Below are positions 38,493-62,162 of a DNA stretch of 64,000 bases, one piece after another. Origin of the DNA: Streptomyces sp. 840.1 (GTDB lineage Bacteria; Actinomycetota; Actinomycetes; Streptomycetales; Streptomycetaceae); assembly GCF_003751445.1 (NCBI RefSeq), contig NZ_RJUU01000001.1, forward strand, positions 1,617,001 to 1,681,000, given 5' to 3'. The notes under the pieces are model-generated. The model saw only the letters and a list, made by a program, of their open reading frames with translations. It did not search any database and was not told where the DNA came from. The first letter of the stretch is position 1. Each line of letters begins with the position of its first letter. The position numbers and the translations under genes were made by a program.

Positions 38493-38693
38493 TCAGAGTT
38501 CGATGTCGCTGAGCTGGTGGTCCATCGCGCGTTCCACCGCGCTCAACGGGATGTCGGGGCGCACCCGTTCCAGGTCGCGCGGGTGCGGGGGCGCGTCCTC
38601 GGGTACGTGCACCCATATCGAACCGGCCCCGATGAGTGCGCGGTAGACGCAGCGCACCATGCGAGCGCCCAATTCGAACCATGAACGACGCAT
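38493..38693 (-). CDS. Small hypothetical protein (DUF6059-like)
   Basis: A 66-residue protein. It starts MRRSWFELGARMVRCVYRAL, then IGAGSIWVHVPEDAPP, and ends PDIPLSAVERAMDHQLSDIEL. The layout, a basic amphipathic helix, a W-x-V-x-x-E-x-x-P turn and a final L-S-A-x-E-R helix, resembles small Streptomyces proteins annotated DUF6059; this is from memory and uncertain. I use ATG 38693; a GTG at 38717 is in frame. It is divergent from the RiPP precursor-like gene at 38901 and may belong to that locus. Confidence 0.5.
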   Translation of the reverse strand: MRRSWFELGARMVRCVYRALIGAGSIWVHVPEDAPPHPRDLERVRPDIPLSAVERAMDHQLSDIEL

Positions 38694-38900
38694 ATGCGGG
38701 CTCAGCTCCCCTGCCACCGGAACGGACTGCCGAGCGTTCCGCAGCCCTCCTGAGCGTCGCTAAAGAGCCCCGGGCCGCAGGCGCGTGAGAACTTCACGCC
38801 CCACTGATGACAGGGGCACTGCCTGGCACAAGGCGCCTCTCGCAGAATCATCACAACGGAACGCAGGCCATTCCCTGACGAAGAAAAGGATCGTGAATCC

Positions 38901-39074
38901 ATGGACAGCGTCATATCGAACGGCGTTCAGAGTCTCGACGAGATCACCGCGCAGTCCACCGGTTCCTCCGGCCAGAAACTGGTGATCGAGCATCTCGACC
39001 TCGTCTCGGACCAGCACATCGCACTGCTGAGCTGGTGCATTCGCACCGAGCCGCTCGGACAAGTCCCGGCATGA
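38901..39074 (+). CDS. Candidate RiPP precursor peptide
   Basis: A 57-residue ORF starting ATG 38901 behind AAAAGGA. It begins MDSVISNGVQSLDEITAQST, continues with a Gly/Ser turn and an acidic segment KLVIEHLDLVSDQH, and ends IALLSWCIRTEPLGQVPA. The acidic helical first part looks like a leader and the C-terminal part like a core holding the only Cys (residue 46). Its stop TGA overlaps the ATG of the YcaO-fusion gene (ATGA, 39071-39074), the usual position and coupling of a precursor with its cyclodehydratase. No family match is recognised; the precursor role is inferred from context and shape. Confidence 0.6.
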   Translation: MDSVISNGVQSLDEITAQSTGSSGQKLVIEHLDLVSDQHIALLSWCIRTEPLGQVPA

Positions 39075-41404
39075 CCGGGCGGGGGGCAAGGGACGTCCGG
39101 GCGGCACTGCCGGACGACACCGCACTGGTGGGGTTCAAGCGCCATCTGCGCCCGACCGTCATCCCGGGGGAGGCGACGTACCTGGTGTCCCCCCGGAATG
39201 TCACGGCGCTGTACGGCGCCCATGCCGAAGTGCTGGTGCCGTTGCTCGACGGCACCAGGAGCATCCGCTCCGTGCTGCACGCCGCGGCACCGGCGCTGAC
39301 CGCCGAGGAAGCCGGCACCTCGTTGCGGGCCCTGACCGGCTCGGGGCTGCTGAACTTCCGCCCCGCGCCGTCGGAGGGCGCCCCCGCCCCCCTCGGCGAC
39401 CCGGTGGCCGAGGCGTACTGGGACCTGGCCGGCCTCGACGGCGGACAGGCCTCGGCGGAACTGGCCGCCGCCAGCGTGCGGATCGTGACGGTGGGCGACC
39501 TGGACACCGGGGCCGTGGAGGACGCCTGCCGGGACTCCCGGATCTCGGTGGCGCCCCCCGGCTCCGCCGCCGGGCTCACCCTCGTCCTGTGCGACGACTA
39601 CCTGGCCCCCGGGCTCCGTGAGGTGGACGCCGCACACCGGGCGAGCGGCACGCCGTGGCTGATCGCCAAGGTGTCCGGTGCGGATCCGTGGGTGGGTCCG
39701 GTCTTCCGGCCCGGCCGCGGCCCGTGCTGGTCCTGCCTCGCGGTCCGGCTGCGCGGCCACCGCGGCTCGGAGTGGCCCGTGCGGCGCGCGCTGGGCCTGG
39801 ACGGGCCGCTCACCCGGCCGTCGGCCTCCCTGGCGGCCGGCCGCTCCATCGCCGCGCACATCGTGGTGCTCGAAACGGCGAAGTGGCTGGCCGGAATGCG
39901 CTATCCCTCGCAGGATCTCGTCCACACCCTGGACACCCTCTTGCTCCGGGTCGCCACCCACCCCGTGAGCAGGCTGCCGCAATGTGCGGTCTGCGGCGAT
40001 CCGGGTCTGGTCGCGCGGACCGTACGCGCGCCCTTCCGGCCCGTGTCACGGCTGAAGGCCGAGCAGGAGCTGGGCGGCGACCGCGCACTGACCCCCGACG
40101 AGATGCTCGACCGGTACGGGCATCTGGTCAGCCCGGTCACCGGGATCGTCAAGGAGATCCGGCGCGCCCCGCACACCCCGGACTTCGTCGCCAGTTACCT
40201 CTCGGGCCACAATCTCGCCGTCAGCCCCCACACCCTCGCCGGGCTCCGCGCCGGACTGCGCGCGCTCAGCGGCGGCAAGGGCCTCACCAGCACTGAGGCC
40301 CGGACAAGCGCCCTGTGCGAGGCGGTGGAGCGCTTCAGCGGCACCCGGCAGGGTGACGAGCCGGTGGTGCGGGACAGCTACCGGGCGCTGGGGCCGGTGG
40401 CCGTGCACCCCAACTCCTGTCAGCTGTACGACGAGAGGCAGTACCGCACCCGTGACGCGTGGAACCGGGGCCGCTCCCATTTCCAGTACGTGCCCCGGCC
40501 GTTCGACGAGGACAAGCCGACCGACTGGACACCGGTGTGGTCGCTGACGGGGCAGACCCAGCGGTTGCTGCCCACCTCGATGCTCTACTTCGGCAACGGC
40601 TCGACCGCCGGCGACGCGGGCACCCGCGACGGCCTGCTGGCCGATTCCAACGGCAACGCGGCGGGCAGCAGCCCCGAGGACGCTCTGGTCCAGGGGTTCC
40701 TGGAGTTGGTCGAGCGGGACGCGGTCGCACTGTGGTGGTACAACCGCACACGGCAGCCGGCCGTCGACCTCGACGCCTTCGACGCGCCCTACGTCCGGCG
40801 CATCCGGGACGGCTACCGCAGGATCGACCGCGAGCTGTGGGTGCTGGACCTGACTTCGGACTTCGGGATCCCGGTCATGGTGGCGCTGTCACGGCGCGAC
40901 GACAAGCCCGCTCAGGACGTGATCTTCGGATTCGGGGCGCACTTCGACCCGCGAACGGCGCTGCGACGGGCACTGACCGAAATGGGCCAGCTGCTGCCGG
41001 CGGTTTCCATGGCCAGGGGCGACGGCACGGGCTATGCCCTCGACGATCCGGAGCTGTGTACCTGGTGGCGCACAGCCACCGTTGACAATCAGCCATATCT
41101 GCAACCGGACCCAGGCATCAGGGCACGGAAACCGGCCAGTTGGCCCTTCGCACCCCACCCTGACCTGCTCACCGATGTAGAAGCCATCACCCGGCTCGTG
41201 CAGGCCCGCGGCATGGAACTGCTGGTCCTGAACCAGACTCGCCCCGACCTGGACATGCCTGTGGTCAAGGTCATAGTGCCGGGCATGCGGCACTTCTGGG
41301 CCAGACTCGGGCCCGGCCGCCTCTACCAAGTTCCGGTTGATTTAGGAAGGTTGACGGCGCCAACTACTTACGAGGAACTCAACCCCATTCCGCTCTTCGT
41401 CTGA
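39071..41404 (+). CDS. Fused E1-like/YcaO cyclodehydratase (TOMM type)
   Basis: A 777-residue fusion. Residues 1-100 look like a winged-helix leader-binding domain (LVGFKRHLRPTVIPGEATYL). Residues ~105-320 form an E1-like ThiF/SagC part without an adenylation motif but with four zinc-type cysteines, C219-WS-C222 and C305-AV-C308. Residues ~360-777 are a YcaO domain: ALCEAVERFSG around 415-423 and ELVERDAVALWWYNR at 545-559 carry the ATP/Mg ligands. It ends ELNPIPLFV, the Pro-rich YcaO tail. It should bind the precursor leader and use ATP to cyclise Cys/Ser/Thr to azolines, or activate a backbone amide in another way. Confidence 0.88.
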   Translation: MTGRGARDVRAALPDDTALVGFKRHLRPTVIPGEATYLVSPRNVTALYGAHAEVLVPLLDGTRSIRSVLHAAAPALTAEEAGTSLRALTGSGLLNFRPAPSEGAPAPLGDPVAEAYWDLAGLDGGQASAELAAASVRIVTVGDLDTGAVEDACRDSRISVAPPGSAAGLTLVLCDDYLAPGLREVDAAHRASGTPWLIAKVSGADPWVGPVFRPGRGPCWSCLAVRLRGHRGSEWPVRRALGLDGPLTRPSASLAAGRSIAAHIVVLETAKWLAGMRYPSQDLVHTLDTLLLRVATHPVSRLPQCAVCGDPGLVARTVRAPFRPVSRLKAEQELGGDRALTPDEMLDRYGHLVSPVTGIVKEIRRAPHTPDFVASYLSGHNLAVSPHTLAGLRAGLRALSGGKGLTSTEARTSALCEAVERFSGTRQGDEPVVRDSYRALGPVAVHPNSCQLYDERQYRTRDAWNRGRSHFQYVPRPFDEDKPTDWTPVWSLTGQTQRLLPTSMLYFGNGSTAGDAGTRDGLLADSNGNAAGSSPEDALVQGFLELVERDAVALWWYNRTRQPAVDLDAFDAPYVRRIRDGYRRIDRELWVLDLTSDFGIPVMVALSRRDDKPAQDVIFGFGAHFDPRTALRRALTEMGQLLPAVSMARGDGTGYALDDPELCTWWRTATVDNQPYLQPDPGIRARKPASWPFAPHPDLLTDVEAITRLVQARGMELLVLNQTRPDLDMPVVKVIVPGMRHFWARLGPGRLYQVPVDLGRLTAPTTYEELNPIPLFV

Positions 41405-41482
41405 GACGGAATCCAGCCACACCCCCTCGACCTCTTCCCATATGATCCCCAAAAAACGCACACATTTGCGAAAGAGGAGGCT

Positions 41483-42673
41483 GTGGGAGCGGAACCGAGC
41501 GTCGCGTCCGGCGAAAGAGAACGCCACCCGGAGGTACACGCCTACAGGCATATTCCACGTGAACACGGCAAGAACCTTCCGGGTCCCGTGCTGGCGCGGG
41601 TAATCCTCCGGGTGGTCGTGCTGAGTTATCTGATCATCACCGCGCTGAATATCCTCGCCACCGATCTCTCCGCGGGCGTCAAATTTCTCGGCGTCGCCGT
41701 ACTCACCGCGGTCTTCGTGATCCAGCTCGTCCACTCGACGCCGGACGCCAACCGCGCGTCGGTCCCGCGCAAGTGCCTCACCCTGGGCGCCCAGGCCCTG
41801 CTCACGTATCTGCCGGTCCTGCTCTTCGGCGTGCAGTGGGGGTCGATGGCCGGCTTCCTGGCCGGTTCGCTGCTGCTCATGATGCCGCAGCGGCTCGGCT
41901 GGACCCTGTACGGCCTGGTGGGCGTCAGCATGTTCGTACCGCCCCTGCTGCTGGGCCTTTCGGCGGTGGGCGCCTTCTACGCGGGGATGAGCACGCTCCT
42001 GACCGGTCTCGTCGTCTACGGGCTCACGCGCCTTGCCGAGCTGATCCAGGAGTTGCACAGTGCCCGCGACGAGGTCGCCCGCATGGCGGTGACGCAGGAG
42101 CGGCTGCGGTTCTCCCGGGACCTGCACGACCTGCTCGGCTACAGCCTGTCCGCGATCACGCTCAAGAGTGAGCTGATCCACCGGCTGATTCCGATGCAGC
42201 CCGACCGGGCCGTGGCGGAGGTCGAGGACGTCCTCGGCATCTCCCGGCAGTCCCTGGCCGATGTCCGCCGGGTGGCCAGCGGCTTCCGGGACATGTCGCT
42301 GCCCCAGGAGATCGAGACCGCCGAATCCGTGCTGATGGCCGCCAATGTGGACGTCGAGGTCAAGGGCGCGATCTGCGACGTCAGCCAGCAGATCGAGAAC
42401 GTACTGGCGGCGGTACTGCGCGAGGCGGTGACCAACGTCCTGCGTCACAGCGAGGCCCAGAGGTGCGTCATCGAGGCCTCGCAGCGGCAGGGAAGCGTCC
42501 GGCTCTCGGTGCTCAACGACGGTACGGACCCGCTGCACCGCGACCCGTCGCCGCACAGCGGGAGCGGCCTCGGCAACCTTCAGCTGCGACTGCGCGAGGT
42601 CGGCGGGAGCCTCGCCTCCGGGCTGGCTGCCGACGGTGGGTTCCACGTGCGGGCGGAGGTTCCCACGCCGTGA
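41483..42673 (+). CDS. Membrane sensor histidine kinase (HisKA_3)
   Basis: A 396-residue kinase. Residues ~35-190 contain five or six hydrophobic segments (VLARVILRVVVLSYLIITAL; TLGAQALLTYLPVLLFGV; GFLAGSLLLMMPQRLGWTLY; and others). A HisKA_3 dimerisation block follows with the phospho-His in RFSRDLHDLLGYSLSAITLK. The HATPase part has REAVTNVLRHSEAQ (N-box) and SGSGLGNLQLRLREVGG (G-box). This is a NarL-partner, DesK-like kinase with no large extracellular domain, suited to sensing a membrane-associated or peptide signal. Start GTG 41483; AGAGGAGG lies very close. It follows the YcaO gene by 78 bases. Confidence 0.88.
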   Translation: MGAEPSVASGERERHPEVHAYRHIPREHGKNLPGPVLARVILRVVVLSYLIITALNILATDLSAGVKFLGVAVLTAVFVIQLVHSTPDANRASVPRKCLTLGAQALLTYLPVLLFGVQWGSMAGFLAGSLLLMMPQRLGWTLYGLVGVSMFVPPLLLGLSAVGAFYAGMSTLLTGLVVYGLTRLAELIQELHSARDEVARMAVTQERLRFSRDLHDLLGYSLSAITLKSELIHRLIPMQPDRAVAEVEDVLGISRQSLADVRRVASGFRDMSLPQEIETAESVLMAANVDVEVKGAICDVSQQIENVLAAVLREAVTNVLRHSEAQRCVIEASQRQGSVRLSVLNDGTDPLHRDPSPHSGSGLGNLQLRLREVGGSLASGLAADGGFHVRAEVPTP

Positions 42674-42849
42674 ACGGGCCGGGGCCGCAGGGCCGCGAAA
42701 CCGTTCGGATCATGGAGTAGGACCCTCCGTATACAGGCGGCCGGCAACGCAGAGCGAGCATGTGAAACTCGCCACGAATCCCGGGGCCGGATGCCGTACG
42801 ATCGCCCCGCGTGAGGCGCGGGGGAGCGCCGCCGGAGAACGGGGGACGC

Positions 42850-43458
42850 GTGATTCGTATTCTGCTGGCCGAAGACATGAACATGGTTCGCGGCGCCTTG
42901 GTCGCGCTGCTGGATCTCGAGGAAGACTTCGAGGTCGTCTGCGAACTCGAGCGCGGCGACGAGATCGTGGCAGGCGCCCTGAAGCACCGGCCCGACGTCG
43001 CCGTCATCGACATCGACCTGCCGGGCATGGACGGCCTGACCGCGGCAGCCGAACTGCGGGAGCGGATGCCGCAGTGCCACACCCTGATCCTGACCAGCCT
43101 CGGCCGGCCGGGCACACTGCACCGCGCCATCGGGGCCCAGGTGGCGGGATACCTCCTCAAGGACGCCCCGCCCAGAGAACTCGCCAGCGCAGTAAGACGC
43201 GTGGCGGCCGGACACCGGGTCGTCGATCCTCAACTGGCCGTCTCCGCCTGGGGCGTCGGCCCCAATCCGCTGACCCTCCGGGAGACCGAGGTGCTCCGGC
43301 TGGCGGCGAAGGGCGCGGAGCCTCCGGAGATCGCGGCCTCGCTCCACCTGTCGACCGGAACCGTACGGAACTACCTGACGACCGTCATCGCGAAGCTGAA
43401 CGCCCGCAATCGGGTCGACGCCATTCTGATCGCGCAGGAGTCGGGCTGGCTGCTGTGA
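42850..43458 (+). CDS. NarL/FixJ-type response regulator
   Basis: A 202-residue regulator. The receiver domain begins VIRILLAEDMNMVRGALVAL, with phospho-acceptor Asp in VAVIDIDLPGMDG, Thr/Ser in LILTSLGRPG and Lys in GYLLKDAPPREL. The C-terminal LuxR-type HTH reads LTLRETEVLRLAAKGAEPPE, followed by IAASLHLSTGTVRNYLTTVI. GTG 42850 follows GGGGGA. It pairs with the kinase encoded 177 bases upstream. Likely targets are the RiPP locus itself or a wider regulon. Confidence 0.9.
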   Translation: MIRILLAEDMNMVRGALVALLDLEEDFEVVCELERGDEIVAGALKHRPDVAVIDIDLPGMDGLTAAAELRERMPQCHTLILTSLGRPGTLHRAIGAQVAGYLLKDAPPRELASAVRRVAAGHRVVDPQLAVSAWGVGPNPLTLRETEVLRLAAKGAEPPEIAASLHLSTGTVRNYLTTVIAKLNARNRVDAILIAQESGWLL

Positions 43459-43464
43459 ACGCCT

Positions 43465-44166
43465 TCACGCACCGGGGTTCCCGCGGCTGCTGAAGGCGCC
43501 CGGGTCGCCCTCGGCGGGGGCCGCCGCCCAGTCCTCGTCCTCGTCCCGCACCGGCGCCACCATGCCGGCCGCGGCCAGGTATTCGAGGATGGCCTTCGTC
43601 ACCTCGGCCGGCAGCGGCAGCGCGGCCGAGGCCGCGTCCGGGGTGATCGGCCACGCGAGCAGGCCGACGACCCACACCGCTTCCGGGCGGTGCAGCTGCA
43701 CCCGGTGCGGTGAGCCGACGGCCTCCAGGACGAACCCCGCCTTCTCCAGGGTGAGGGAGACCCCTCCGGGCAGCTTCAGTAATCGCCGGTCCGGAACGCC
43801 CACGGGCGTGAAGACCGCGTGCCTGGACACCGCGGACACCGAAAGCAGCGGGCCGTTGCGGTCGGTGATCATCCCCAGGGTCCGCACGATGAGGTGGGAC
43901 AGCGCGCGCAGGGTCGGCAGCACCACGAGGTACGTGCCGCCCGCGCTCTCCGTGCCCTCGGACCGGTCGTCGACGTTCGCCAGGAGGACCGGCCCGAGCT
44001 CCATCCGCCGCAGCGCCTCACGGATCAGGGGGCCCGGCCGGCGTATCCGCTCCGTGCCCAGTCGGCCCCGGAGCACGAGATCCTCCCCGGTCTCGTCGGG
44101 TTCGACCAGGACGTCCTCGTGCAGCGACCACAGATCGACTGTGTGACGCCCGGTGGGCTGCGCCAT
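43465..44166 (-). CDS. Stand-alone SagB N-terminal-like protein, no nitroreductase domain
   Basis: A 233-residue protein. The order and wording of its blocks resemble the N-terminal non-catalytic half of actinobacterial SagB-type peptide dehydrogenases: VDLWSLHEDVLVEPDETG, PLIREALRRMELGPVLLANV, LIVRTLGMITDRNGPLLSV, LHRPEAVWVVGLLAWPIT and ILEYLAAAGMVAPV. Full SagB proteins continue after that point into an FMN nitroreductase domain; here the protein ends in an acidic/Ser-Gly tail. No FMN motif is present. It could be an accessory leader-binding or scaffold protein for the YcaO enzyme. ATG 44166 follows GGAAGGGGA. It converges on the response regulator, with 6 bases between stops. Confidence 0.65.
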   Translation of the reverse strand: MAQPTGRHTVDLWSLHEDVLVEPDETGEDLVLRGRLGTERIRRPGPLIREALRRMELGPVLLANVDDRSEGTESAGGTYLVVLPTLRALSHLIVRTLGMITDRNGPLLSVSAVSRHAVFTPVGVPDRRLLKLPGGVSLTLEKAGFVLEAVGSPHRVQLHRPEAVWVVGLLAWPITPDAASAALPLPAEVTKAILEYLAAAGMVAPVRDEDEDWAAAPAEGDPGAFSSRGNPGA

Positions 44167-47822: not shown

Positions 47823-48890
47823 ATGGACATCGCTCCCTCACCCTTCGCCGTTCGGCAGACCTTCGGCCCCCGGGCCGACGACGTGGACCAGCACGAGCAC
47901 CTGCCCGCTCCCTCGCCGTCCGCCTCGTTCCTCGGCCCGCACCATCTCGTCCACTGCCCGGACACTCCGGAGGCGTTCGTGCTCGCCTCCACGGAGCCGG
48001 TCCGTCAGCACTTCGCCTTCTCCACCGAACTTCCGCAGGACCACCCGCTGTTCTCCGATGCGACGGCACCCTTCCACGATCTGCTGTACCCGATCGAGTC
48101 ACTGCGGCAGACGGCGCTCTTCGCCGCCGGGCGGTACTTCCGGGTGCCGGAGAACCGGCGCACGCTCGTCACCACCAGCGCGGCGGTGGTCACCGATGTG
48201 GCTCCGTGGCAGCGTTCCCGGACCGGCAGCCAGCTCGGCCTCGACCTCGACCTGACACCGACCGAGGTCGTGAAGGGCGTACCGCGCGGGATGCGGTGCC
48301 GTGCGTCGGTGAGCATCGACGGTGCGGAGTGCGGCACGGCCGAGGCACGGCTCCTGTTCCTGATGCCGGGGGTGTACCGCAACCACCGCACGCACGGCCG
48401 GCAGGAGAGCGAGCACTCCGCTCAGCGCAACAGCGGACTGCCACCGGGGCACGCCACCCCCGCGCCCTCGCTGGTCGGCCGGGGCTCGGCACGCAACGTC
48501 ATGATCGGGCTGCCGTTCGACGAGTCGGAGGAAGGGCTGACGTTCCCGGTGGACGTGCCCTCGGCCAGGGAGGTCCTGCCGGACGCGGGACACGAGGTGC
48601 CCGCCTCGCTCTTCCTGGAGGCATCCCGCCAGGCGGCGCTGTTCGCCGCCGGTGAGCTCTACGGCTTCGCGCCCTCCCACACCCTGCTGACGAACTGGCG
48701 TGCGTCCTTCCGCGGCTTCGCCGAACCGGGGCTGCCGCTGCGCTGCTCCGTACAGCCGCTCGGTGAACAGGCAGGGTCCGAGCTGCGCCGCAATGCCTCC
48801 GGGCAGCCCGTCGCGGAGCTGCGGCTGACCTTCGTCCAGGGTTCCCGCGTGGTGTCGACCGTGGCCGCATCCGTCCTGCAGATCTGCTGA
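47823..48890 (+). CDS. AfsA-like hotdog-fold protein
   Basis: A 355-residue protein with two AfsA-type hotdog repeats. Repeat 1 covers residues ~40-165 (PEAFVLASTEPVRQHFAFST, then DLLYPIESLRQTALFAAGRY). Repeat 2 covers ~200-350 (LPDAGHEVPASLFLEASRQA, then LYGFAPSHTLLTNWRASFRG). AfsA/ScbA enzymes condense dihydroxyacetone phosphate with a beta-ketoacyl-ACP at the first step of gamma-butyrolactone signal synthesis. Here the gene sits at the edge of a biosynthetic cluster, without a receptor gene next to it. It could make a signal or act in the pathway. AAGGA precedes ATG 47823. Confidence 0.8.
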   Translation: MDIAPSPFAVRQTFGPRADDVDQHEHLPAPSPSASFLGPHHLVHCPDTPEAFVLASTEPVRQHFAFSTELPQDHPLFSDATAPFHDLLYPIESLRQTALFAAGRYFRVPENRRTLVTTSAAVVTDVAPWQRSRTGSQLGLDLDLTPTEVVKGVPRGMRCRASVSIDGAECGTAEARLLFLMPGVYRNHRTHGRQESEHSAQRNSGLPPGHATPAPSLVGRGSARNVMIGLPFDESEEGLTFPVDVPSAREVLPDAGHEVPASLFLEASRQAALFAAGELYGFAPSHTLLTNWRASFRGFAEPGLPLRCSVQPLGEQAGSELRRNASGQPVAELRLTFVQGSRVVSTVAASVLQIC

Positions 48891-48939: not shown

Positions 48940-51588
48940 ATGCGATTTCATGTGCTGGGCCCGGTCCGGATGGAACAGAGAACACCGTCCGCCGCCAAGC
49001 CCAGAGTCGTACTCGCCACGCTTCTGGTTCAGGGGAACAACGTCGTCTCCACCCACAGCCTGATCGACGAGCTGTGGGGCATGGAGCCGCCGCGCACCGC
49101 CGCGACCACACTCCAGGTGTACGTGTCGCAGTTGCGCAAGGCGCTGGCCGACACGGTGGACGACGAGCGGGAGCAGCCGCTCCTGACCAGGCCGCCCGGC
49201 TATGTGATCCAGGTGCGCCCGGGAGAGCTGGACCTCGCGGTGTTCGAGTCGCTGCGCACCCGGGGCCGTGCCGCCTACGAACAGCGGGACTTCGAGGCGG
49301 CCTCGCGGTGGCTCGGTGAGTCGCTGGACCTGTGGTCGGGGCCCGCGCTGTCCGGGATTCCGCACGGGCCTTCGCTGGAGACGAACGCCATACGGCTCAA
49401 CGAACTGCGCACGGAGGTGCTGGAGCAGCGGATCGCGGCCGATCTCCTGCTGGGACGCCACCATGAGCTGATCGGCGAACTGATGGCGCTGGCCAACGAG
49501 TTCCCGATGCGGGAGACCCTGCAGGCCCATCTGATGGTCGCCCTGTACCGGTCGGGGCGGGAGGCGGAGGCCCTGCGGACCTACCACCGGGCGCGCCGGA
49601 CGCTGATCAACGAACTGGGGGTCGAGCCCGGCCCCACGCTGACCCGGCTCCTGGACCGGGTACTGGCCGCCGACCCCGGGCTGGCCTGGCACGACACCCC
49701 GCTGCGGGCCCCCGGGACGGTCTCGGCGGGCTCCCCGACGCGGCCGGGCCGGGCCGCCCCGTCCCTGCACCGGCTGCCGCCGAGGGCGGCTCACTTCACC
49801 GGCCGGGACGAGGAACTGGCCCGGGGACGAAGGTTCCTGGCCGCCGCGGCCCCGGGCGCGGCCCGGGTGCTGGCGGTCTCGGGGAGGCCCGGGGTCGGCA
49901 AGTCCTCGCTGGCCGTCCAACTGGCACACTCCGCCGACGGGTTCGCCGACGGGAGGATTCACATCGGGCTGCGCGACGCGGCCGGGGCGGCCGTTCCGCC
50001 GGAGACGGCGATGGCGATGCTGCTGCGCCGGCTGCGGGCCGACGAACCGGCTCCGGACGACCCGCTGCCGGCCGGAGCCGAGGAGCTCGGCGAGCTCCTG
50101 CACCGGCACACCCAGGGCCGGGACCTGCTGCTCGTCCTCGACGACGCGGTGTCCGAGGCCCAGGTGCGGCCGCTGCTCGCGTCCGTACCGGACAGCATGG
50201 TCGTGCTGACCAGCCGCCGGACACTGGCGGCGCTGGACGACGTGCAGCATCTGGTCCTCGATGTGCTCGGCCCCGAGGAGGCCGAGCGGCTCCTGACCGA
50301 CGCGGGCGGGCCGCGCATGGCGCAGGACCCGGCGGCGGTCGCCGAGCTGGCGCGGCTGTGCGGCCGGCTGCCGCTCGCCCTGCGCGTGACGGCCGGCGGC
50401 CTGGCGGTCCGGCCGCACTGGACCGCGGCCGGGCTGGTGAAGCGGCTGGCCGACGAACGGACCCGGCTGTCCGCGCTGACGCTGGGCGATCTGGACGTGC
50501 GCAGCGGGCTGCTGGCCGCCTACCGGGACGTCCCGGCCCCCGAGCGGGCGGCGTTCCGGCTGCTCGGTCTCGCCCCGCTGCCGGACTTCCGGCTGTGGAC
50601 CGCGGCCGCGTTGCTCGGCCTGGATCCGCCCGATGCCGAAGGACGGCTGGAGACGCTCGTGCGGGCGCATCTCCTGGAGGCGCGGGGGCGTTCAGGGACG
50701 CAGGCTCCGGTGAGCTACGGATTCCACTCACTGCTGAGGTCGCTGGCCCTGGAGATGCTGGCCGAGGAACCCGCGTCCGTCGTGCCGGCCGCGATGGACC
50801 GGCTCGGCCGGGCGTGTGTCGTGCTGGCGCGCCGGGCGGACGCGTTGCTCGCCCCCGGCCGGGACCGGCTCGCGGCGTCCGAGGGGGCCGGTGCCGAGCG
50901 GCCGCCGGGGTTCTCGCCGCTGACGTGGTTCCGGGAGGAGTCCGCCGGTCTGCTGGCGGTCGTACGGCAGACGCATGCGGCCGGGCTGTGGGAGCCGACG
51001 AGCGCCCTGGCGTCCGCCCTGAGCGGGTACTACGAGGCGTGTGCGCGCTGGGACGACTGGCAGGTCAGCCACGATCTGGCGCTCGACGCGGCGCGGCGCT
51101 CCGCAGACGTGGCCGCGGAGGCGTCCCTGGTGCGGTCCCTGGGTGATCTGGCCTGGCAGCGCCGCCGGTACGACCGGGCCATGGGCTGCTACGAGCTCGG
51201 CGGCCGGCTGTTCACCCGGCACGGCGACCGGGCCGGAGCGGGCCGTTGCTCCAGCGGCGAGGGCGACGTGCTGTTCGGCCGGGGCCGGGTGGCGGAGGCC
51301 GGGGCCCGGTACGCGCGGGCGCTGGGCGCGGGCCGTGCGCAGGGTGACGCGCGGGGCCTGGCGGACGCGCTGCGCGGGCTCGCCTTCGTGGCGCTGCGCG
51401 AGGGGCGCCCCGAGGAGGCGCTGCGCCTGCTCGGCGAGTGCGCCGAGGCGGCGAAGGCGGCGGGCGACGAGCGCTGGCACGCCTACGCGCGGCGGACCGG
51501 CGCCCTGGTGGCCGAGACGGCCGAGGTGTCGTGGTCCCGGCTGGAAGTGCGCCCAGGGGTCTGGCTGCTGGACCCGTCGGCGGGCTGA
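48940..51588 (+). CDS. AfsR/SARP-family regulator with NB-ARC and TPR domains
   Basis: An 882-residue regulator. The N-terminal SARP unit has an OmpR-like wHTH (MRFHVLGPVRM, then LIDELWGMEPPRTAATTLQV and YVSQLRKAL) and a BTAD helical domain (LRTRGRAAYEQRDFEAASRW, then AEALRTYHRARRTLINELGV). An NB-ARC ATPase follows, with Walker A GRPGVGKSSLAVQ near residue 315 and LLLVLDDAVSEAQV. The C-terminal ~250 residues look like TPR helices. It is the probable pathway activator of the adjoining cluster; targets would be direct repeats near cluster promoters. AAGGAG stands before ATG 48940. Confidence 0.9.
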   Translation: MRFHVLGPVRMEQRTPSAAKPRVVLATLLVQGNNVVSTHSLIDELWGMEPPRTAATTLQVYVSQLRKALADTVDDEREQPLLTRPPGYVIQVRPGELDLAVFESLRTRGRAAYEQRDFEAASRWLGESLDLWSGPALSGIPHGPSLETNAIRLNELRTEVLEQRIAADLLLGRHHELIGELMALANEFPMRETLQAHLMVALYRSGREAEALRTYHRARRTLINELGVEPGPTLTRLLDRVLAADPGLAWHDTPLRAPGTVSAGSPTRPGRAAPSLHRLPPRAAHFTGRDEELARGRRFLAAAAPGAARVLAVSGRPGVGKSSLAVQLAHSADGFADGRIHIGLRDAAGAAVPPETAMAMLLRRLRADEPAPDDPLPAGAEELGELLHRHTQGRDLLLVLDDAVSEAQVRPLLASVPDSMVVLTSRRTLAALDDVQHLVLDVLGPEEAERLLTDAGGPRMAQDPAAVAELARLCGRLPLALRVTAGGLAVRPHWTAAGLVKRLADERTRLSALTLGDLDVRSGLLAAYRDVPAPERAAFRLLGLAPLPDFRLWTAAALLGLDPPDAEGRLETLVRAHLLEARGRSGTQAPVSYGFHSLLRSLALEMLAEEPASVVPAAMDRLGRACVVLARRADALLAPGRDRLAASEGAGAERPPGFSPLTWFREESAGLLAVVRQTHAAGLWEPTSALASALSGYYEACARWDDWQVSHDLALDAARRSADVAAEASLVRSLGDLAWQRRRYDRAMGCYELGGRLFTRHGDRAGAGRCSSGEGDVLFGRGRVAEAGARYARALGAGRAQGDARGLADALRGLAFVALREGRPEEALRLLGECAEAAKAAGDERWHAYARRTGALVAETAEVSWSRLEVRPGVWLLDPSAG

Positions 51589-51659: not shown

Positions 51660-52673
51660 CTACTGGGCGGGCCGCAGCACCCGGACCGAGGGGGTGGCGG
51701 GGTTGTCGCTCGGGAGGGAGCCGTCCAGGGCGGGCCGACGGGTGCGGAGCATCCGGCGCCACTGCTCGGCGCTGTAGGCGGCGGGCTGCGTGGTGGCGAT
51801 GAAGTCGCGTACGACTTCGAGGAAGCGGTCGGGTTCGGAACGGAACGGGAAGTGGCCCGAGTTCTCGAAGATCTCCAGCCGGCTGCCGGGCATCGACACA
51901 TGGCCCAGGCCCGCGTGGAGTGCGGGGACCACCTGGTCGCGGCCGCCCCACAGGAGCATCGTGGGCATGCCCTGGGCGAGGTAGCAGCGGTCGAGCATCG
52001 TGCCGACCTGGCCGCGCCAGTCGACCACCGCGCGCAGGGTGCGGATGAAGGCGTTGCGGGCGTGCGCGTCCGGCAGCGCGTCCACCACCCGGAGCAGGTC
52101 GGGGGCGTCGACACCGAGGCCGTTGCCGAGGCGCTGCAGGACCTTGACCGCCATTTCGAACTGCCGGCGCATGGTCGGCAGCCGCAGCCCCTGGAGCAGG
52201 AACTGGGCGCCCGGCAGCGAGGCCGCTCGGAGCAGCGGGGTGACCTGCCGGCCGATGCCGCCGGTGCCGACGAGCACGAGCCGCTCGCAGCGCTCGGGGA
52301 ACTGGTAGGCGAACTGCATGGCCACCGCGCCACCGAGCGAGTGCCCGATGAGGGTGGCCCGTTCGATGCCGAGGACGCCCAGCAGGTCCCGCATGCCGTT
52401 GGCGTACGCCGGCAGTGAGTAGTCGGCCCTGGGCTTCTCGGACTCGCCGTGGCCCAGCAGGTCGGGGGCGATGACCCGGTAGTTCCTGGCCAGGTCCGGC
52501 ATGACGTCGCTCCACGTGTCGGAGGAGGCGCCGATGCCGTGGATGAGCAGTACCGCGTCGCCCTTGCCGGCCATGCGGAACGCCCGCCGGTAGCCGTGCA
52601 CGGTGCGGTGGCGGAGCCGGATCGGGGAGCCGGTGCGCCCGGGGGCTCTCTTCGGTCCGGCCGCCTCGCTCAT
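51660..52673 (-). CDS. Alpha/beta hydrolase
   Basis: A 337-residue hydrolase with the full catalytic set. The nucleophile Ser is in GHSLGGAVAMQFA, the Asp in LWGGRDQVVPALHAGL, and the His in ENSGHFPFRSEPD. The oxyanion region is LLIHGIGASSDTW. This is a complete enzyme of the common proline-iminopeptidase/epoxide-hydrolase-like fold, with no signal peptide. It is the last gene of the leftward cluster operon and starts in an ATGA overlap with the 60-residue ORF. It may release or modify the polyketide; the role is inferred from position only. Confidence 0.82.
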   Translation of the reverse strand: MSEAAGPKRAPGRTGSPIRLRHRTVHGYRRAFRMAGKGDAVLLIHGIGASSDTWSDVMPDLARNYRVIAPDLLGHGESEKPRADYSLPAYANGMRDLLGVLGIERATLIGHSLGGAVAMQFAYQFPERCERLVLVGTGGIGRQVTPLLRAASLPGAQFLLQGLRLPTMRRQFEMAVKVLQRLGNGLGVDAPDLLRVVDALPDAHARNAFIRTLRAVVDWRGQVGTMLDRCYLAQGMPTMLLWGGRDQVVPALHAGLGHVSMPGSRLEIFENSGHFPFRSEPDRFLEVVRDFIATTQPAAYSAEQWRRMLRTRRPALDGSLPSDNPATPSVRVLRPAQ

Positions 52674-52852
52674 GCCTCCTCCGACCGGGCGGAGCGGCGC
52701 TCGGACGCGCGGTGGCCGAACCGTTCGTGGACGGCGGGGGCGGAGACCGAACGGGTGTGGGTCAGATCGCTCTCGATCACGCCGAGAGAGGCGAGACTGT
52801 GCCAGGGGCGTACGGTCGCGACCGTGCTGTTCGAATAGCGTTTGTCCGTCAT
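52670..52852 (-). CDS. 60-residue ORF of unknown function inside the cluster operon
   Basis: The ORF starts ATG 52852 with a GGAGGCA ribosome site and overlaps both neighbours by four bases (ATGA at 52849-52852 and 52670-52673), so it is read as part of the operon. The peptide begins MTDKRYSNSTVATVRPWHSL, continues ASLGVIESDLTHTRSVSAPA and ends in an Arg/Glu/Ser-rich tail. It has no Cys, no signal peptide and no membrane helix. I recognise no family. It could be a chaperone-like adaptor, a small regulatory protein or a peptide precursor; none is supported further. Confidence 0.6.
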   Translation of the reverse strand: MTDKRYSNSTVATVRPWHSLASLGVIESDLTHTRSVSAPAVHERFGHRASERRSARSEEA

Positions 52853-53955
52853 GACTGCCTCCTTGACTGGGTGACCGGCCGGGACGGGCCGGGAGCGCGT
52901 CGCCGCGTGAGTCGTGCGCGGAGCAGTGATCCGATCAGCCAGCGCCGCATCGCGCCCAGGTGGGCGGGCGAGCCGTGCACATCGTCGAAGACCTTGACCC
53001 GTACGTCGGGGGCCGTGCCGAGCAGGAGCCGCTGGTCCGAGGCCGGGATGATCTCGTCCCGGGCGCTGGCCACGTACCGCACCGGAACCCGGACGTCCCG
53101 CAGCTGACCGGCGGTGAGGGCGAACTCCGCCAGCGTGGCGCGCAGTTCGTCGCGGCCGGCGGATTCGGTGAGCCGGACCAGGGTGTCCGCGGTGATGCCG
53201 GGGACCTTCGGCCACCAGGTCTCGTCGGTGAAGAACTCCGCGACCGGGGCGCCCACGGTCAGGACCCGCCGGATGCGCGGGTCCTCGGCGGCGGCCCGCA
53301 GGGCGAGGTGGCCGCTGAAGCTGAGGGTCAGCATGGACGTGTCCGAGGTGTCGGCCCGTCCGGCGAGCCGGTCCATCAGCTCGGTGAGCAGCCGCCAGGA
53401 GTCGGGCCGGTAGGCGGTGGTGTTCTCGCCCACGCCGGGGAACTCGGTCACCACCGCGGCGAAGCCCAGGCGCCGCAGCAGCGGCAGCAGCCGTGCCCAC
53501 TGTTCCTTGACGCTGACGATGCCGCCCATGACGACGAGCAGGGGCCTGGGGCGGGCCGCGTCGAGGCCGGAGGCCCAGCAGGCCACCTCTCCGCCGGGGA
53601 GTTTCAGCTCCACGCGTTCGATGTCGCGCTGTCCTTGCCGCCAGGTGTCGAAGGTCTCCACCCCCAGCCGCTGTGCCTCCTGGCGGGCGGGGTCCCCGTG
53701 GTGCGGGAACCTGGCCAGTGCGAAGTGACTGCAGGCACTGAGCAGTTCGCCGTCCGCGGCGGCCGCCCGTCCCGCCCCGGTCCATACCGAGGTCCAGGAG
53801 GCGGGGTCGCCCTCCGTGTCGTTGGTGATCCGGCCGAGGAGCCGGGTGGTGTGCTGGGGGTCCATGCCCTGACTGCGGGCGTGCAGCCGGGCGAACTCTT
53901 TCAGTTCCTCAAGGTGGTTCACGTCCATCACCCTCCCGTCGACATCGACTTTCAC
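52849..53955 (-). CDS. FrsA-like alpha/beta hydrolase, candidate tetronate eliminase
   Basis: A 368-residue protein with an N-terminal ~120-residue helical cap and a C-terminal alpha/beta-hydrolase domain. The nucleophile elbow is LTLSFSGHLALR, the acid is in SARDEIIPASDQ and the His in DVHGSPAHLG. The block VVMGGIVSVKEQWARLLPLL forms the oxyanion side. In agglomerin (Agg5) and abyssomicin (AbyA5) pathways a hydrolase-fold enzyme removes acetate from an O-acetylated tetronate to give the 5-exomethylene group. The company of an E2-like acyltransferase, ACP and KSIII supports that role here. Start GTG 53955; ATG 53928 is an alternative. Confidence 0.72.
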   Translation of the reverse strand: MKVDVDGRVMDVNHLEELKEFARLHARSQGMDPQHTTRLLGRITNDTEGDPASWTSVWTGAGRAAAADGELLSACSHFALARFPHHGDPARQEAQRLGVETFDTWRQGQRDIERVELKLPGGEVACWASGLDAARPRPLLVVMGGIVSVKEQWARLLPLLRRLGFAAVVTEFPGVGENTTAYRPDSWRLLTELMDRLAGRADTSDTSMLTLSFSGHLALRAAAEDPRIRRVLTVGAPVAEFFTDETWWPKVPGITADTLVRLTESAGRDELRATLAEFALTAGQLRDVRVPVRYVASARDEIIPASDQRLLLGTAPDVRVKVFDDVHGSPAHLGAMRRWLIGSLLRARLTRRRAPGPSRPVTQSRRQS

Positions 53956-54013
53956 CGCTGTTCCTAGCGGCCCGGTTGTGCCCCTGAGTGCGGCTGACGG
54001 CGCGTCGGATCGC

Positions 54014-54892
54014 TCACCACCATTCGTTCTCGGCGCCGGCCTCCGTCTCGTCGTCGCCGAGCGCCTCGGTGAGGGCGTCGACGATTCCGCCGTCCAGCGT
54101 GGTGTGCGCCTGGGTGTCCCCGGTGCCCCCGAAGCCGGAGTCGCCGGTGGCGACGCTGATGGTGTACTCGTCGTCGAGATAGAAGGTGCGAAAGGCCCAT
54201 TCGGTGCCGGTGCCCGGTGTGCCGTCGGGGCGGCGCACCTCCGTGGGCGTGCCGTCCGTCTCGAAGCCGAAATCGGTGAAGCGGAACTGCATGCCGAGGC
54301 CGATCGCCTTGCTGTACGCCTCTTTGAGCGTCCAGAGCCGGATCAGTGCGGTATCCCGTTCGGCGGGGTCCATGGCCTCGATCAGCTCGACCTCGCGCGG
54401 GGTGCACAGGTGGCGGCCGAGGTTGGGGCCGTACAGCACGCGGTCGGAGCGTTCCGCGTCCACTCCGATGACCGCGCCGGTGGCGAGTCCCACCAGGAGC
54501 AGGTTCTCGGTGTGGCTGAGGCTGATCTGCACGCCGTCGTAGCCGCGCAGGTAGGGCCGGCCGGACGGCGTGTAGCCCAGCTCCACCGACTGCGGAGGCA
54601 CGCGCAGCGCCGCGGCGGCCGCGAACTTGAGCAGCACCCGCGAGGAGGCGAACCTGGTGCGGACTTCCGGGTGGGTCAGGTCCAGGTAGCGGGCCCAGTC
54701 CCGGCCCAGCAGGGCCCGCAGCCGGGGCCCGCCGGCCCGTTCCGGGCGCCAGTCGTCCAGCCGTGCGTACAGCACCGCGCAGGCGTGTTCCGCCAGGTCG
54801 GCCCGGACCCTGTTCCAGTCTCCGTCGGGTCCGGAGATCAGGATCGGTTCACCGAACGTCCGGCTCGGGGGCTGCTTCCCTGGAGCCGTCAT
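54014..54892 (-). CDS. 4'-phosphopantetheinyl transferase (Sfp type)
   Basis: A 292-residue PPTase. Motifs are LGYTPSGRPYL, ISLSHTENLLLVGLA, GAVIGVDAERSDRV with the Mg-binding Asp and Glu, and LIRLWTLKEAYSKAIGLGM. It converts the apo-ACPs of this cluster (55670, 60031 and the PKS ACP) to the holo form using coenzyme A. The first 44 bases overlap the end of the E2-like acyltransferase gene, an unusually long overlap implying coupled translation. The C-terminal ~40 residues are acidic and Gly-rich, outside the fold. Confidence 0.9.
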   Translation of the reverse strand: MTAPGKQPPSRTFGEPILISGPDGDWNRVRADLAEHACAVLYARLDDWRPERAGGPRLRALLGRDWARYLDLTHPEVRTRFASSRVLLKFAAAAALRVPPQSVELGYTPSGRPYLRGYDGVQISLSHTENLLLVGLATGAVIGVDAERSDRVLYGPNLGRHLCTPREVELIEAMDPAERDTALIRLWTLKEAYSKAIGLGMQFRFTDFGFETDGTPTEVRRPDGTPGTGTEWAFRTFYLDDEYTISVATGDSGFGGTGDTQAHTTLDGGIVDALTEALGDDETEAGAENEWW

Positions 54893-55673
54893 CGAAGTCC
54901 TCCATGGTCTGGTGCAGGGCGCTCAGGACATCGGCCGCGGTGGCTCCGTCGATCACTCGGTGGTCGAAGGTGAGGCCGAGCCGCATCATGGGCGCCGGCA
55001 CGACCTCGCCGTCGCGGACCACCGCGCGCTCCACGATCCTTCCGGCGCAGAGGGTGACGGCCGTGCCGCCGGCGGAGTGGAACCCGTCGACGGTCCGGTG
55101 GCCGAGCGAGCTGACCGACACCGTGCCGAGGATCCCGGGCCGCTTCGCCGGGTCGCGCAGGGCGGCCGCGAAGGCGAGGCGGCCGAGCGGCGCGGGGATG
55201 CGGCTCAGCATCCGTACCCCCTTGAACTCCGGGAGGCCTGCGGCCTCCTCGCCCCGGTAGCGCTCGACCCGCTCCTGGATCTCGGCCAGTGACGCCTTCT
55301 CCAGGTTGGGGACGAGCGCCGAGAGGACGCTGCGTTCGCCGTCCACCGGCCGGTCCAGGGCCAGCTTGCCCGTGACCGTGCCGAACCGCATGAGGCGCGG
55401 GCGGCGCAGGATTCCGGGCCAGCCGGGGGCCATCACCGCGTTGGCCTCGGGGTGCTGGGCGAGGACGCGCCCCGCGGTGTGCAGCAGATAGCTCACCACC
55501 GAGTAGCGCGCTCCGCGTTCCCGGGCGGCGGCGCGGTGTTCCTGGATCCGGGTCATGTCGATGTCGGTGTCCAGGTGCACCGGGCGCTGGCCCGCCGCCC
55601 ATTCCAGGAAGTACAGGGTGTGGCGGCGCCGGCGCACCGTGCCGGGGCCGGCGCCGCCGGAGGCGCCGCTCAC
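54849..55673 (-). CDS. E2-type acyltransferase domain protein, candidate tetronate O-acetyltransferase
   Basis: A 274-residue protein equal to the catalytic domain of 2-oxoacid dehydrogenase E2, without lipoyl or subunit-binding domains. The catalytic motif is FDHRVIDGATAADVLSAL (H-x-x-x-D-G), and the domain start has RRRRHTLYFLEWAAGQRPVH. Free-standing E2-like enzymes acetylate the primary hydroxyl of the tetronate ring in agglomerin (Agg4) and abyssomicin (AbyA4) biosynthesis. The gene lies between an ACP and PPTase and close to the KSIII, consistent with that. GTG 55673 is in a GTGA overlap with the ACP gene. Confidence 0.8.
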   Translation of the reverse strand: MSGASGGAGPGTVRRRRHTLYFLEWAAGQRPVHLDTDIDMTRIQEHRAAARERGARYSVVSYLLHTAGRVLAQHPEANAVMAPGWPGILRRPRLMRFGTVTGKLALDRPVDGERSVLSALVPNLEKASLAEIQERVERYRGEEAAGLPEFKGVRMLSRIPAPLGRLAFAAALRDPAKRPGILGTVSVSSLGHRTVDGFHSAGGTAVTLCAGRIVERAVVRDGEVVPAPMMRLGLTFDHRVIDGATAADVLSALHQTMEDFDDGSREAAPEPDVR

Positions 55674-55918
55674 GCCGGTACCGCCAGCTCGTAGATCTCC
55701 TTCAGGCTGCGTGCCTCGAGCACCCGGCCGACCGGGATCGACGAGCCGAGTGCCTGCTCGACGGCGGTGACCAGCTTGAGCAGGTAGAGCGAGTCCCAGT
55801 CCGGCAGCTCGTCGAAGTCCGCGCCGATCTGCTCGTCGGTCAGCGGCAGGCCGAGCTCGTCCCGGACCGTACTGATGAAGTCGTCGATGCTGTATCCGAC
55901 GGGGGTGGCGCTGCTCAT
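55670..55918 (-). CDS. Acyl carrier protein, candidate glyceryl-ACP
   Basis: An 82-residue carrier protein. The phosphopantetheine Ser is in the block ELPDWDSLYLLKLVTAVEQA, where the usual G-x-D-S is D-W-D-S. It sits directly between the KSIII and E2-like genes, the place of the dedicated ACP (RkE, Agg2, AbyA3 type) that carries a glyceryl unit for tetronate rings. The glyceryl-loading FkbH protein is not in the window. It overlaps the E2-like gene by four bases. Confidence 0.85.
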   Translation of the reverse strand: MSSATPVGYSIDDFISTVRDELGLPLTDEQIGADFDELPDWDSLYLLKLVTAVEQALGSSIPVGRVLEARSLKEIYELAVPA

Positions 55919-55931
55919 GTCTCCTCCAGGG

Positions 55932-56962
55932 TCATATCTTCTCCAGGGCGAATCCGGCCTTGATCCATTTGCTGGACTCGATGGCCACGGCGAGTGCCTT
56001 CTCCCCCGCCGACATCTGTGTCAGAAGCTTCTCGATCTGGAGGAAGGGCAGTGCGTTGCCGTTGTTGCCGGTGTCGGCGACGCAGGAGATCTCCAGTGCC
56101 GTCGGCACATCGAGCTGCTCGGTGATCTTCCGGGTCATCCGGCCGGACAGCTGGGGCGGCAGGAGGTAGTCCAGCTGGTCAGCGTCCCAGTCGAGTTCGC
56201 CGAGCAGCTCCCAGAGGATCTCCACGGCCATCACCGGGACGTGCTCCTCGATGGCCTTGTAGTCCTCGGTGACCGCCTGCCGGTCCTCGTGCCGGTCGGC
56301 GAGCCCGAACCATTCGATGACCTGGCCCGGCTTGCGGCCGAGGCCGGTGAAGCGGTTGAGGACCTGGCGCACCGCGACGGCCTTGCCGCGCGGCTCCGCG
56401 CTGACGACCGCGGCACCCGCGCCGTCCCCGAACAGGACGAAGTTCACCAGGTCGCTCGGTGCCGCTCCGGTCAGGTCGCGGTGGACGTCGAGATGCTTGC
56501 TGCACACGTCGCCGCCGATGACCAGACCGGTGCGGTACTGGCCGGAGGCGATCATCGTCTGCGCCAGGCCGAGCGCCTGGACGGCGCCCGCGCAGCCCGA
56601 CTGGAGCTGGAAGGTGGGCACCTGGTCCAGGCCCAGCTGGTCGGCGATGTTGTTGACGGTGGCGGGCATCAGGCTGTCGGGGGTGGCGGTCCCGAGAACG
56701 ATGAAGTCGATCTCGCCCGGGTCGGTGTCCGCGCCTGCCAGGGCGCGTTCGCAGGCCTGGGCGCACAGGTCCGCCAGCGTCCAGCGCACCTCCCCGGTGC
56801 CCAGGTCGCGGGCGAAGTGGCGGGTCCTGGTGCCGATGAACACCTCGATCCATTCCTCGTTGACACCGAGCACCTTGGCGAGCTGGGCGTTGTCCACCGG
56901 CTCACCGGGCAGTGCGGTGCCGACGGACACGATGTGGGTCGTCGGGGTGCGGTTCTGCTCGG

Positions 56963-56966
<4 letters not shown>
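55932..56966 (-). CDS. 3-oxoacyl-ACP synthase III-like protein, candidate tetronate-forming synthase
   Basis: A 344-residue KAS III-fold protein. The nucleophile is Cys125 in LQSGCAGAVQALGLAQ. FGDGAGAAVV and the C-terminal Asn region (DTGNNGNALPF, Asn301) are conserved. The position of the usual catalytic His (H-Q-A-N in FabH) reads LLPPQLSG, so the His appears replaced by Pro271. RkD-, Agg3- and AbyA1-type KSIII proteins join a beta-ketoacyl-ACP to glyceryl-ACP to close the tetronate ring, which needs no malonyl decarboxylation. The gene overlaps the PKS start by four bases. Confidence 0.85.
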
Positions 56967-60030
<3,064 letters not shown>

Positions 60031-60031
<1 letters not shown>

Positions 60032-60309
60032 CAGGCAGTCCTCACCCCGTCGGCGAATGTCTCCATCAGGTGTCCGGCGAGCGCGGCGACCGTCGGGTAG
60101 TCCCAGGCGACGGTCGGCTCCAGTACGAGGTCGAAGTCCTCCTCGATGTCACCGCACAGGCTGAGTGCGGCGACCGAGTCGAGACCGTACTCGGCGAGCG
60201 GCACGGCCGGGTCGATCTCGCCCGGCTGCCGCTTCAGGTACAGGGCGATGCGCTCGGCCAGCCACGTGGTCAGCTCTTCCGTGGTGTGTCCAGTGGTCGG
60301 AACGGGCAT
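60031..60309 (-). CDS. Acyl carrier protein (starter-unit ACP)
   Basis: A 92-residue carrier protein with the standard GLDSVAALSLCGDIEEDF block. It lies directly before the PKS gene and after the two acyl-CoA dehydrogenase genes. This suggests that it carries the fatty-acyl starter during desaturation and hands it to the PKS ketosynthase. ATG 60309 follows AGGAGTGC. Confidence 0.9.
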
Positions 60310-62151: not shown

Positions 62152-62162
62152 GGCGTCCTCTC

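Follow-up and report, generated by a model that had tools for sequence, protein, structure and literature searches.

A conserved precursor, YcaO and two-component gene cassette of Streptomyces sp. 840.1 and its possible role in gating secondary metabolism

What would a short ribosomal peptide and its putative modifying enzyme do when their genes are tied to those of a two-component system? This question is raised by a locus of Streptomyces sp. 840.1 (genome of 8.84 Mb in four contigs) that lies in a 64,000-nucleotide stretch of contig NZ_RJUU01000001.1 (positions 1,617,001 to 1,681,000), hereafter the window. Here a precursor-like open reading frame (ORF) is followed by genes for an E1-like/YcaO fusion protein, a DesK-type histidine kinase and a NarL-type response regulator, and by a convergent gene that we call P0005 (Table 1). 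A first-pass annotation made from the sequence alone had taken it for a minimal locus of a ribosomally synthesized and post-translationally modified peptide (RiPP). The positions and strands that it had given to the ORFs were confirmed, and the ATGA overlap between the precursor and YcaO genes is seen in the sequence. A gene caller also accepted all six module ORFs, moving the starts of the kinase and DUF6059 ORFs to later positions; the scores of the precursor (12.1) and the DUF6059 ORF (13.6) are barely over its threshold of 12. As described below, the gene set is widely conserved and carries a common promoter element, and we see an even chance that it forms a portable, self-amplifying peptide and two-component cassette that gates adjacent secondary metabolism.

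Conservation of the gene set and its promoter element

The gene set, its conservation, the promoter element and the targets of that element were computed. Relatives were collected by comparing the YcaO protein with genome contigs and keeping the best 80 of 171, a set that leans to close relatives and, together with the window, makes up 81 loci. The nearest named relative of the window YcaO protein (88% identical) is that of Streptomyces sp. NBC_01104. The kinase is present in 76 of the 81 loci, the regulator in 76 and both in 74; in 73 loci the kinase gene lies on the same strand within 2.6 kb of the YcaO gene. Each of the five loci without the regulator (L005, L011, L074, L023 and L040) belongs to a genome that encodes a 71–74% identical regulator elsewhere. 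Among 150 evenly sampled genomes of the same genus, 40 had a YcaO match (E-value 1e-100), one per genome, and all 40 encoded the kinase within about 10 kb, in 38 cases directly downstream on the same strand with a gap of no more than 1.9 kb. In G017 the kinase gene is adjacent and divergent, and in G038 it lies ∼7 kb away and its product is only 36–38% identical. The association of YcaO, kinase and regulator on which the first-pass annotation had relied is thus constant, and a kinase and a regulator encoded beside a precursor are what is expected of a peptide-autoinducer two-component system. The small DUF6059 ORF that it had placed upstream is indeed there, and divergent; as a constant part of the set it was rejected, with strong matches limited to L002, L003 and L006 and weak ones to L021, L060 and L073 among the 80 loci. 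Two further copies of the cassette (L120 and L121) reside on linear Streptomyces plasmids, where they are annotated as thiazole/oxazole-modified microcin (TOMM) leader-binding protein, histidine kinase, response regulator and 'NADH oxidase'. A second recurrent neighbourhood (L098, L101, L102 and L104–L109) has a related kinase, mostly with a regulator, beside an ATP-binding cassette (ABC) ATPase and a conserved protein of ∼240 residues (family 235).

Upstream of the precursors we found a 38-bp element (RTGA-N5-TCAY-N9-RTGA-N6-ACTG) with a 13-bp dyad as its first part and, 22 bp on, another that is half-conserved. At least five of the six letters of CAGAAT occur at offset 55–61 in 55 of 68 precursor sites, compared with 0.8% of random windows. 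A regular expression matched 74 distinct copies in the 1.79 Mb of loci (the window site being counted once), of which 72 precede the precursor or YcaO gene, one (in L084, which has no YcaO) precedes a gene for a Streptomyces antibiotic regulatory protein (SARP) and one, at L078:125, is unassigned; there was none in the same 1.79 Mb after Markov shuffling. With a weight matrix built from 68 sites, that of the window precursor included, 76 of the 79 loci that could be scored had a precursor site (missing in L027, L063 and L076), against 71 with a relaxed regular expression; in L015 and L035, which fall outside the 79, the upstream sequence is cut off. At two plasmid-borne loci outside the training set the matrix found the element before the precursor (52.3 and 43.3) and before the P0005 relative (21.9 and 12.4). 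In the window, only the precursor site (45.4) and the P0005 site (Table 1) score above 1, the next best match reaching 0.6, and in the whole genome of the host the exact pattern with at most one mismatch occurs once. The 150 genomes contain 28 exact copies, as opposed to one match for the backwards control: 25 precede YcaO, one a YcaO fragment (G130) and one a SARP gene (G084), and the copy in G119 has no module in view. With these controls, the element as noise or as part of a coding start could be ruled out.

Of the 26 convergent genes of the P0005 type, 24 also have the element in front: 22 of the 24 that belong to the 81 loci, and those of L083 and L091; the matrix found none in L017 and L028. 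As a related element stands before both the precursor and P0005, P0005 looks like a co-regulated member of the set. Other, unassigned matches above 9 were L078:125 (37.2), L088:9606 before the kinase (27.5), L035:5872 (23.7), L095:1189 (18.0), L085:4596 (17.1) and several that score lower or overlap in reverse. A perfect copy was also seen at 7319 on the minus strand of L116, which has no YcaO gene and only distant kinase and regulator genes in the vicinity.

Which protein reads the element? Its presence follows that of a close regulator in 27 of 28 cases (Fisher 5e-16), and does so within the YcaO-negative genomes as well (P = 0.03, few cases). For this reason the response regulator most likely binds it, to judge from this pattern of occurrence. 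The alternative that it is a SARP site is disfavoured because the element tracks the regulator, only 42 of the 81 loci have a SARP gene in their flanks and the halves of the element are dyads.

The peptide, its putative modification and P0005

A phmmer search with the window peptide (E-value 0.01) found a relative at the right place in 9 of 80 loci. When translations were read by eye for position, motif and core, all but two of the 79 loci whose upstream sequence is available showed a short ORF at the precursor's place (77 loci; none recognisable in L026 and L028). Thus the 57-residue ORF, which the first-pass annotation required to be conserved, is so in position; its sequence is conserved mainly in the motif and core, the similarity over the full peptide being mostly too weak for phmmer. 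The leader motif L-V-I-E-x-L-D is common to most relatives and the core (for example LFTICI, ALWTLCA or LFTVTYT) lies ∼10 residues on; the motif is degraded in L075, L076, L078 and L081 and absent in L070, which has a core-like FTWIC. Of 32 near-clade cores, 26 have Cys and six have Thr at the key position, in a register that itself required one of these residues. Tandem FTFC-type cores, three in L017 (7573–7965) and seven in L023 (7570–7956), suggest a typical RiPP arrangement with several peptides per precursor. Position, leader motif and core together support a RiPP-type precursor, as first annotated. The near-clade precursors end in G-(Q/R)-(L/F)-x-A (39050–39074 in the window); the ribosome site of YcaO and the ATGA overlap, and not a function of the peptide, may account for this ending.

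The window precursor matched no Pfam or NCBIfam model, and its near relative in L002 likewise had no match of the TIGR04351 or nitrile hydratase leader peptide (NHLP) type. Precursors of distant loci have nitrile-hydratase-like leaders: among ten tested, those of L045 and L072 passed the TIGR04351 cut-off and those of L060, L081, L058, L036 and L078 scored under it.

Over its full length, the window YcaO protein is related to cyanobactin heterocyclases of solved structure, namely LynD (E-value 9e-148), MusD and TruD. It ends in NPIPLFV, and by a simple count 75 of the 81 relatives have an N-P-x-P ending; crude regular expressions matched the CEAxERxS motif in 45 and two Cys pairs in 71 of the 81 proteins. 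The locus has two marks of a TOMM locus, namely an adjacent precursor with a leader motif and a Cys/Ser/Thr core and an E1-like plus YcaO cyclodehydratase, and the latter is of the LynD/TruD type found with cyanobactins. The precursor would be bound via its L-V-I-E-x-L-D segment, and the LynD-like fusion protein would probably convert the core Cys (Thr in some relatives) to an azoline.

A full SagB/ThcOx-type dehydrogenase is encoded in 22 of the 81 loci, in 20 of them between YcaO and the kinase; by sequence, the SagB of L045 corresponds to the catalytic half of ThcOx. The window module has no full flavin mononucleotide-dependent dehydrogenase, only the N-terminal half represented by P0005. 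The lack of a dehydrogenase recorded in the first-pass annotation is thus true of the window and lineage-specific, since distant relatives carry the full enzyme. P0005, previously described as SagB-N-like, does correspond to the N-terminal half of an oxidase of the ThcOx/SagB type and lacks the catalytic half. It matched no Pfam or NCBIfam family, and its computed fold is a confident model (predicted local distance difference test score 89). Genes of this family occur in 27 of the 81 loci, in L070, L079 and L080 between YcaO and the kinase. This recurrence, the element before 24 of 26 convergent copies and the confident model rule out a chance ORF or decayed remnant. As the oxidase is left only as its N-terminal, peptide-binding-type half, the azoline is probably not oxidised in the window clade, and P0005 may bind the peptide.

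Neighbouring clusters and the likely role of the cassette

Flanking genes, which were assigned to families from a single representative of each or by eye, include SARPs in 42 of the 81 loci (35 directly divergent from the precursor), AMP-ligases in 35, ketosynthases in 21 and AfsA proteins in 11; phosphopantetheinyl transferases, carrier proteins and acyl-CoA-dehydrogenase-like proteins are also recurrent. The cassette usually lies in or beside diverse biosynthetic clusters, which range from type II polyketide-like ones to a non-ribosomal peptide synthetase-like cluster with MbtH (L120) and one combining sugar genes with a beta-amino-acid polyketide synthase (L121). In the window it is followed by kor/ferredoxin genes (named by eye), the AfsA gene, the large SARP gene and then the polyketide-type cluster, with largely the same gene order in the cluster of the L008 genome. 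An isolated minimal locus is thereby ruled out: the supposedly minimal locus has a biosynthetic cluster ∼8 kb further on (51.6–64 kb and beyond), and its relatives too usually lie in or beside clusters.

The cluster at 51660–63941 encodes an alpha/beta hydrolase, a phosphopantetheinyl transferase relative, ketosynthase-III-like and ketosynthase-family proteins, carrier-protein-like ORFs and two acyl-CoA-dehydrogenase-like proteins; ketosynthase III and carrier proteins were named by eye and the others from family representatives. The product of 62163–63941 has a 72–77% identical relative in seven of 13 near-clade genomes searched (L021 being left out) and 52% and 33% identical ones in two more; four have none.

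Table 1. Features of the cassette and its surroundings (coordinates in the window)
Feature	Coordinates	Strand	Details
Bipartite promoter element before precursor	38785..38822	+	Dyad 38785–38797, second half 38807–38821; found by regular expression and weight matrix
Putative -10 hexamer CAGAAT	38843..38848	+	58 nt after start of bipartite element
Precursor peptide, 57 aa	38901..39074	+	Leader-type motif LVIEHLD; core predicted near LLSWCIRTEP
E1-like/YcaO fused heterocyclase, 777 aa, LynD/TruD/MusD relative	39071..41404	+	TIGR03882 and TIGR03604/PF02624
Membrane histidine kinase, HisKA_3 (DesK type), 396 aa	41483..42673	+	AGAGGAG ribosome-site-like stretch 5' of gene
NarL/LuxR-type response regulator, 202 aa	42850..43458	+	Response_reg and GerE
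P0005, 233 aa, N-terminal half of ThcOx/SagB-type oxidase without nitroreductase half	43465..44166	-	Winged-helix domain, residues 128–207
Weaker element copy before P0005	44226..44263	-	Matrix score 16.5; CAGAAT 44205–44200, 58 nt after element start
DUF6059 ORF, 74 aa, divergent from precursor	38493..38717	-	DUF6059, E-value 8e-11
AfsA-family gene (butyrolactone-type hormone synthase family), neighbour	47823..48890	+	PF03756, E-value 3.7e-20
Large SARP/AfsR-type activator (BTAD, NB-ARC, TPR), neighbour	48940..51588	+	
Part of polyketide-type cluster, runs past window end	51660..63941	-	Family representatives; partly by eye

The presence of AMP-ligases (35 of 81 loci), ketosynthases (21 of 81) and, in many clusters, carrier proteins would fit a peptide that is built into the product of the neighbouring cluster, a hybrid scaffold of RiPP and polyketide or peptide, with the two-component pair as ordinary cluster regulation. 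We give this only a slim chance. The chemistry of the neighbours varies, whereas precursor, YcaO, kinase, regulator and element are kept together as a set, and in the related clusters L086, L087 and L088 no precursor or YcaO gene was found by tblastn.

In a FastTree phylogeny of the kinase that included YcaO-less members and outgroups (midpoint-rooted), the YcaO-less kinases of L082/L092/L093, L083, L084/L085, L086/L087, L088/L089 and L100/L103 branch inside the YcaO-associated clade; those of L095 and L099 lie near its base and the ABC-linked kinases outside it, and L094 lies on a contig fragment of G130. This branching suggests repeated loss of the peptide genes, with retention of the kinase, usually the regulator and often the SARP. 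L083 (6924–12106), where tblastn found neither YcaO nor precursor, combines a very long or double kinase ORF with a regulator and a P0005-type gene preceded by the element, and is possibly a receiver-only locus.

How might the cassette work? A hydropathy scan of the kinase shows four clear membrane segments within residues 1–165 (six are possible by eye), and this membrane part contains invariant residues. The most likely input to the kinase would be the modified peptide or a precursor–P0005 complex. Once active, kinase and regulator would raise the expression of precursor and P0005, the regulator acting on the bipartite element before the precursor–YcaO genes and P0005, and in other lineages before SARP genes, so that the peptide would feed a self-amplifying switch. 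The switch would in turn gate the adjacent biosynthetic cluster, in many lineages via a SARP.

Several observations weigh against such a switch. Against the first-pass proposal that the peptide is sensed by its own kinase, the core and the kinase sensor do not covary (partial Mantel r = -0.05, P = 0.69, in 29 of the 81 loci, with YcaO and kinase-domain distances removed), while the core tracks YcaO (r = 0.34, P = 0.0005), and kinase–regulator pairs survive without YcaO in several genomes. (The core register, for which Cys or Thr was demanded, caught 34 loci. Four that could not be aligned, L037, L043, L055 and L080, were removed; L012, L018, L022 and L046 were given a new register, L040 and L051 were entered manually, and L005, L011 and L074 were left out for want of a kinase in the locus.) Close regulators occur without a full YcaO match in 12 of the 150 genomes, including G130 with its YcaO fragment, and YcaO without a regulator in five, at an arbitrary cut of E-value 2e-70; L026 and L028 have YcaO, regulator and element, and neither kinase nor recognisable precursor was found nearby. 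An exact element copy is absent from 15 of the 40 YcaO-bearing genomes. SARP sites, found in 14 loci, are weaker (scores of 11–31 against a null maximum of 10.3; L032, which overlaps a precursor site read backwards, and L024, at 10.1, are left out) and none of the 14 has the -10 motif, five letters of which occur at only nine of 24 P0005 sites. In the window itself, the matrix scan found no element before the SARP or AfsA gene. Finally, gene calls revealed no dedicated exporter, ABC exporter, protease or peptidase in the module or as far as the AfsA gene, in agreement with the first-pass annotation, and no exporter or peptidase family is constant among the annotated families of the loci (a result that covers part of the families and includes no search aimed at immunity genes); the most frequent transporters named are of the major facilitator superfamily (13 of 81) and the ABC type (nine of 81).

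Some of these points would suit an azoline antimicrobial or other secreted RiPP under environmental control, with a kinase that senses a non-peptide input, namely the persistence of same-clade kinase–regulator pairs without YcaO and the lack of covariation between core and sensor. Goadsporin, an azole RiPP and Streptomyces TOMM, cuts both ways: according to the available text of PMC4603692, it inhibits growth at higher concentration and at low concentration promotes secondary metabolism and morphogenesis. Against an antimicrobial also stand the lack of any constant exporter or peptidase family among those annotated and the constant position of the cassette in or beside unrelated biosynthetic clusters, and we regard this alternative as unlikely.

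The lack of an exporter or peptidase makes an intracellular role, with P0005 as partner, a live rival: a precursor–P0005 complex would tune the kinase, the regulator or the SARP without any export. It would agree with the nature of P0005 as an oxidase N-terminal half under the common promoter element, and with L083, which keeps a P0005-type gene and element beside kinase and regulator after YcaO is gone. L083 is, however, a single case, and the invariant membrane residues of the kinase suit a ligand outside or in the membrane at least equally well; we assign this rival a low probability.

For the peptide as a signal, we hold the following specific version tentatively, at somewhat less than even chance: in what would be a new class of Streptomyces signalling cassette, an azoline-modified peptide, exported or membrane-borne, would be the autoinducer of its own DesK/NarL-type pair, and P0005, a ThcOx half stripped of catalysis, would help by binding the peptide; the cassette, carried on linear plasmids too, would gate chemically unrelated clusters via SARPs, and repeated loss of the peptide genes would have left orphan kinase–regulator–SARP units. 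If the peptide is a signal, a RiPP-based switch would act on biosynthetic clusters, many of them thought to be silent in culture, in 40 of the 150 sampled genomes of the genus, about one in four. Silent clusters could then perhaps be woken with the peptide, natural or synthetic, and precursors so far named 'putative TOMM peptide' (TIGR04351, a model name that gives no function) would gain a role. The 38-bp element offers a direct handle for finding such switches and predicting their targets.

Relation to known systems

The enzymes and the fold are of known kinds (LynD and ThcOx). For the fixed union of an azoline-type precursor, a LynD-like YcaO, a DesK/NarL pair and a stripped ThcOx half under one element, placed in or beside unrelated clusters, we found no description in one open literature library (subscription papers being outside its scope), in line with the first-pass statement that no described Streptomyces system with this exact set was known to it. 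In the available text, PMC12402327 names YcaO as an enzymatic analogy and in a reference, and nothing more, PMC12224297 treats SARPs as cluster beacons, with no YcaO in its main text, and PMC2887384 contains neither 'two-component' nor 'histidine kinase'. Goadsporin differs in its fused cyclodehydratase with B protein and dehydratase and in its many heterocycles, and the available account mentions no such two-component cassette (PMC4603692). The NHLP/TIGR04351 precursors resemble those of the distant relatives in their leader, unlike the precursors of the window and L002, which match no such model; the NHLP and Nif11 groups of TOMMs also lack PatA/G-like proteases, according to the same partial source (PMC4603692).

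The cyanobactin systems provide the closest enzymes, the YcaO fusion being a full-length relative of LynD, TruD and MusD and P0005 matching the N-terminal half of ThcOx (CyaGox). In contrast to cyanobactins, the window clade lacks the catalytic half of the oxidase, has a built-in two-component system and is actinobacterial; no PatA/PatG-type protease was seen around the module or among the annotated recurrent families (no whole-genome search was made).

Peptide-sensing two-component autoinduction is familiar from systems of the agr, ComD and NisRK type, which are similar in that precursor, modifying enzyme, polytopic kinase and regulator are encoded together; from the element before the precursor, autoinduction would likewise be predicted here. 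The cassette differs from them in its predicted YcaO azoline chemistry, its DesK/NarL-type pair and the lack of an exporter. In the hormone and SARP cascades of Streptomyces, built on AfsA-type butyrolactones and AfsR/SARP activators, a small lactone is read by a TetR-type receptor. The cassette shares with these cascades the AfsA and SARP genes next door and, in other lineages, SARP genes with related elements, whereas here a kinase would read a ribosomal peptide as the signal.

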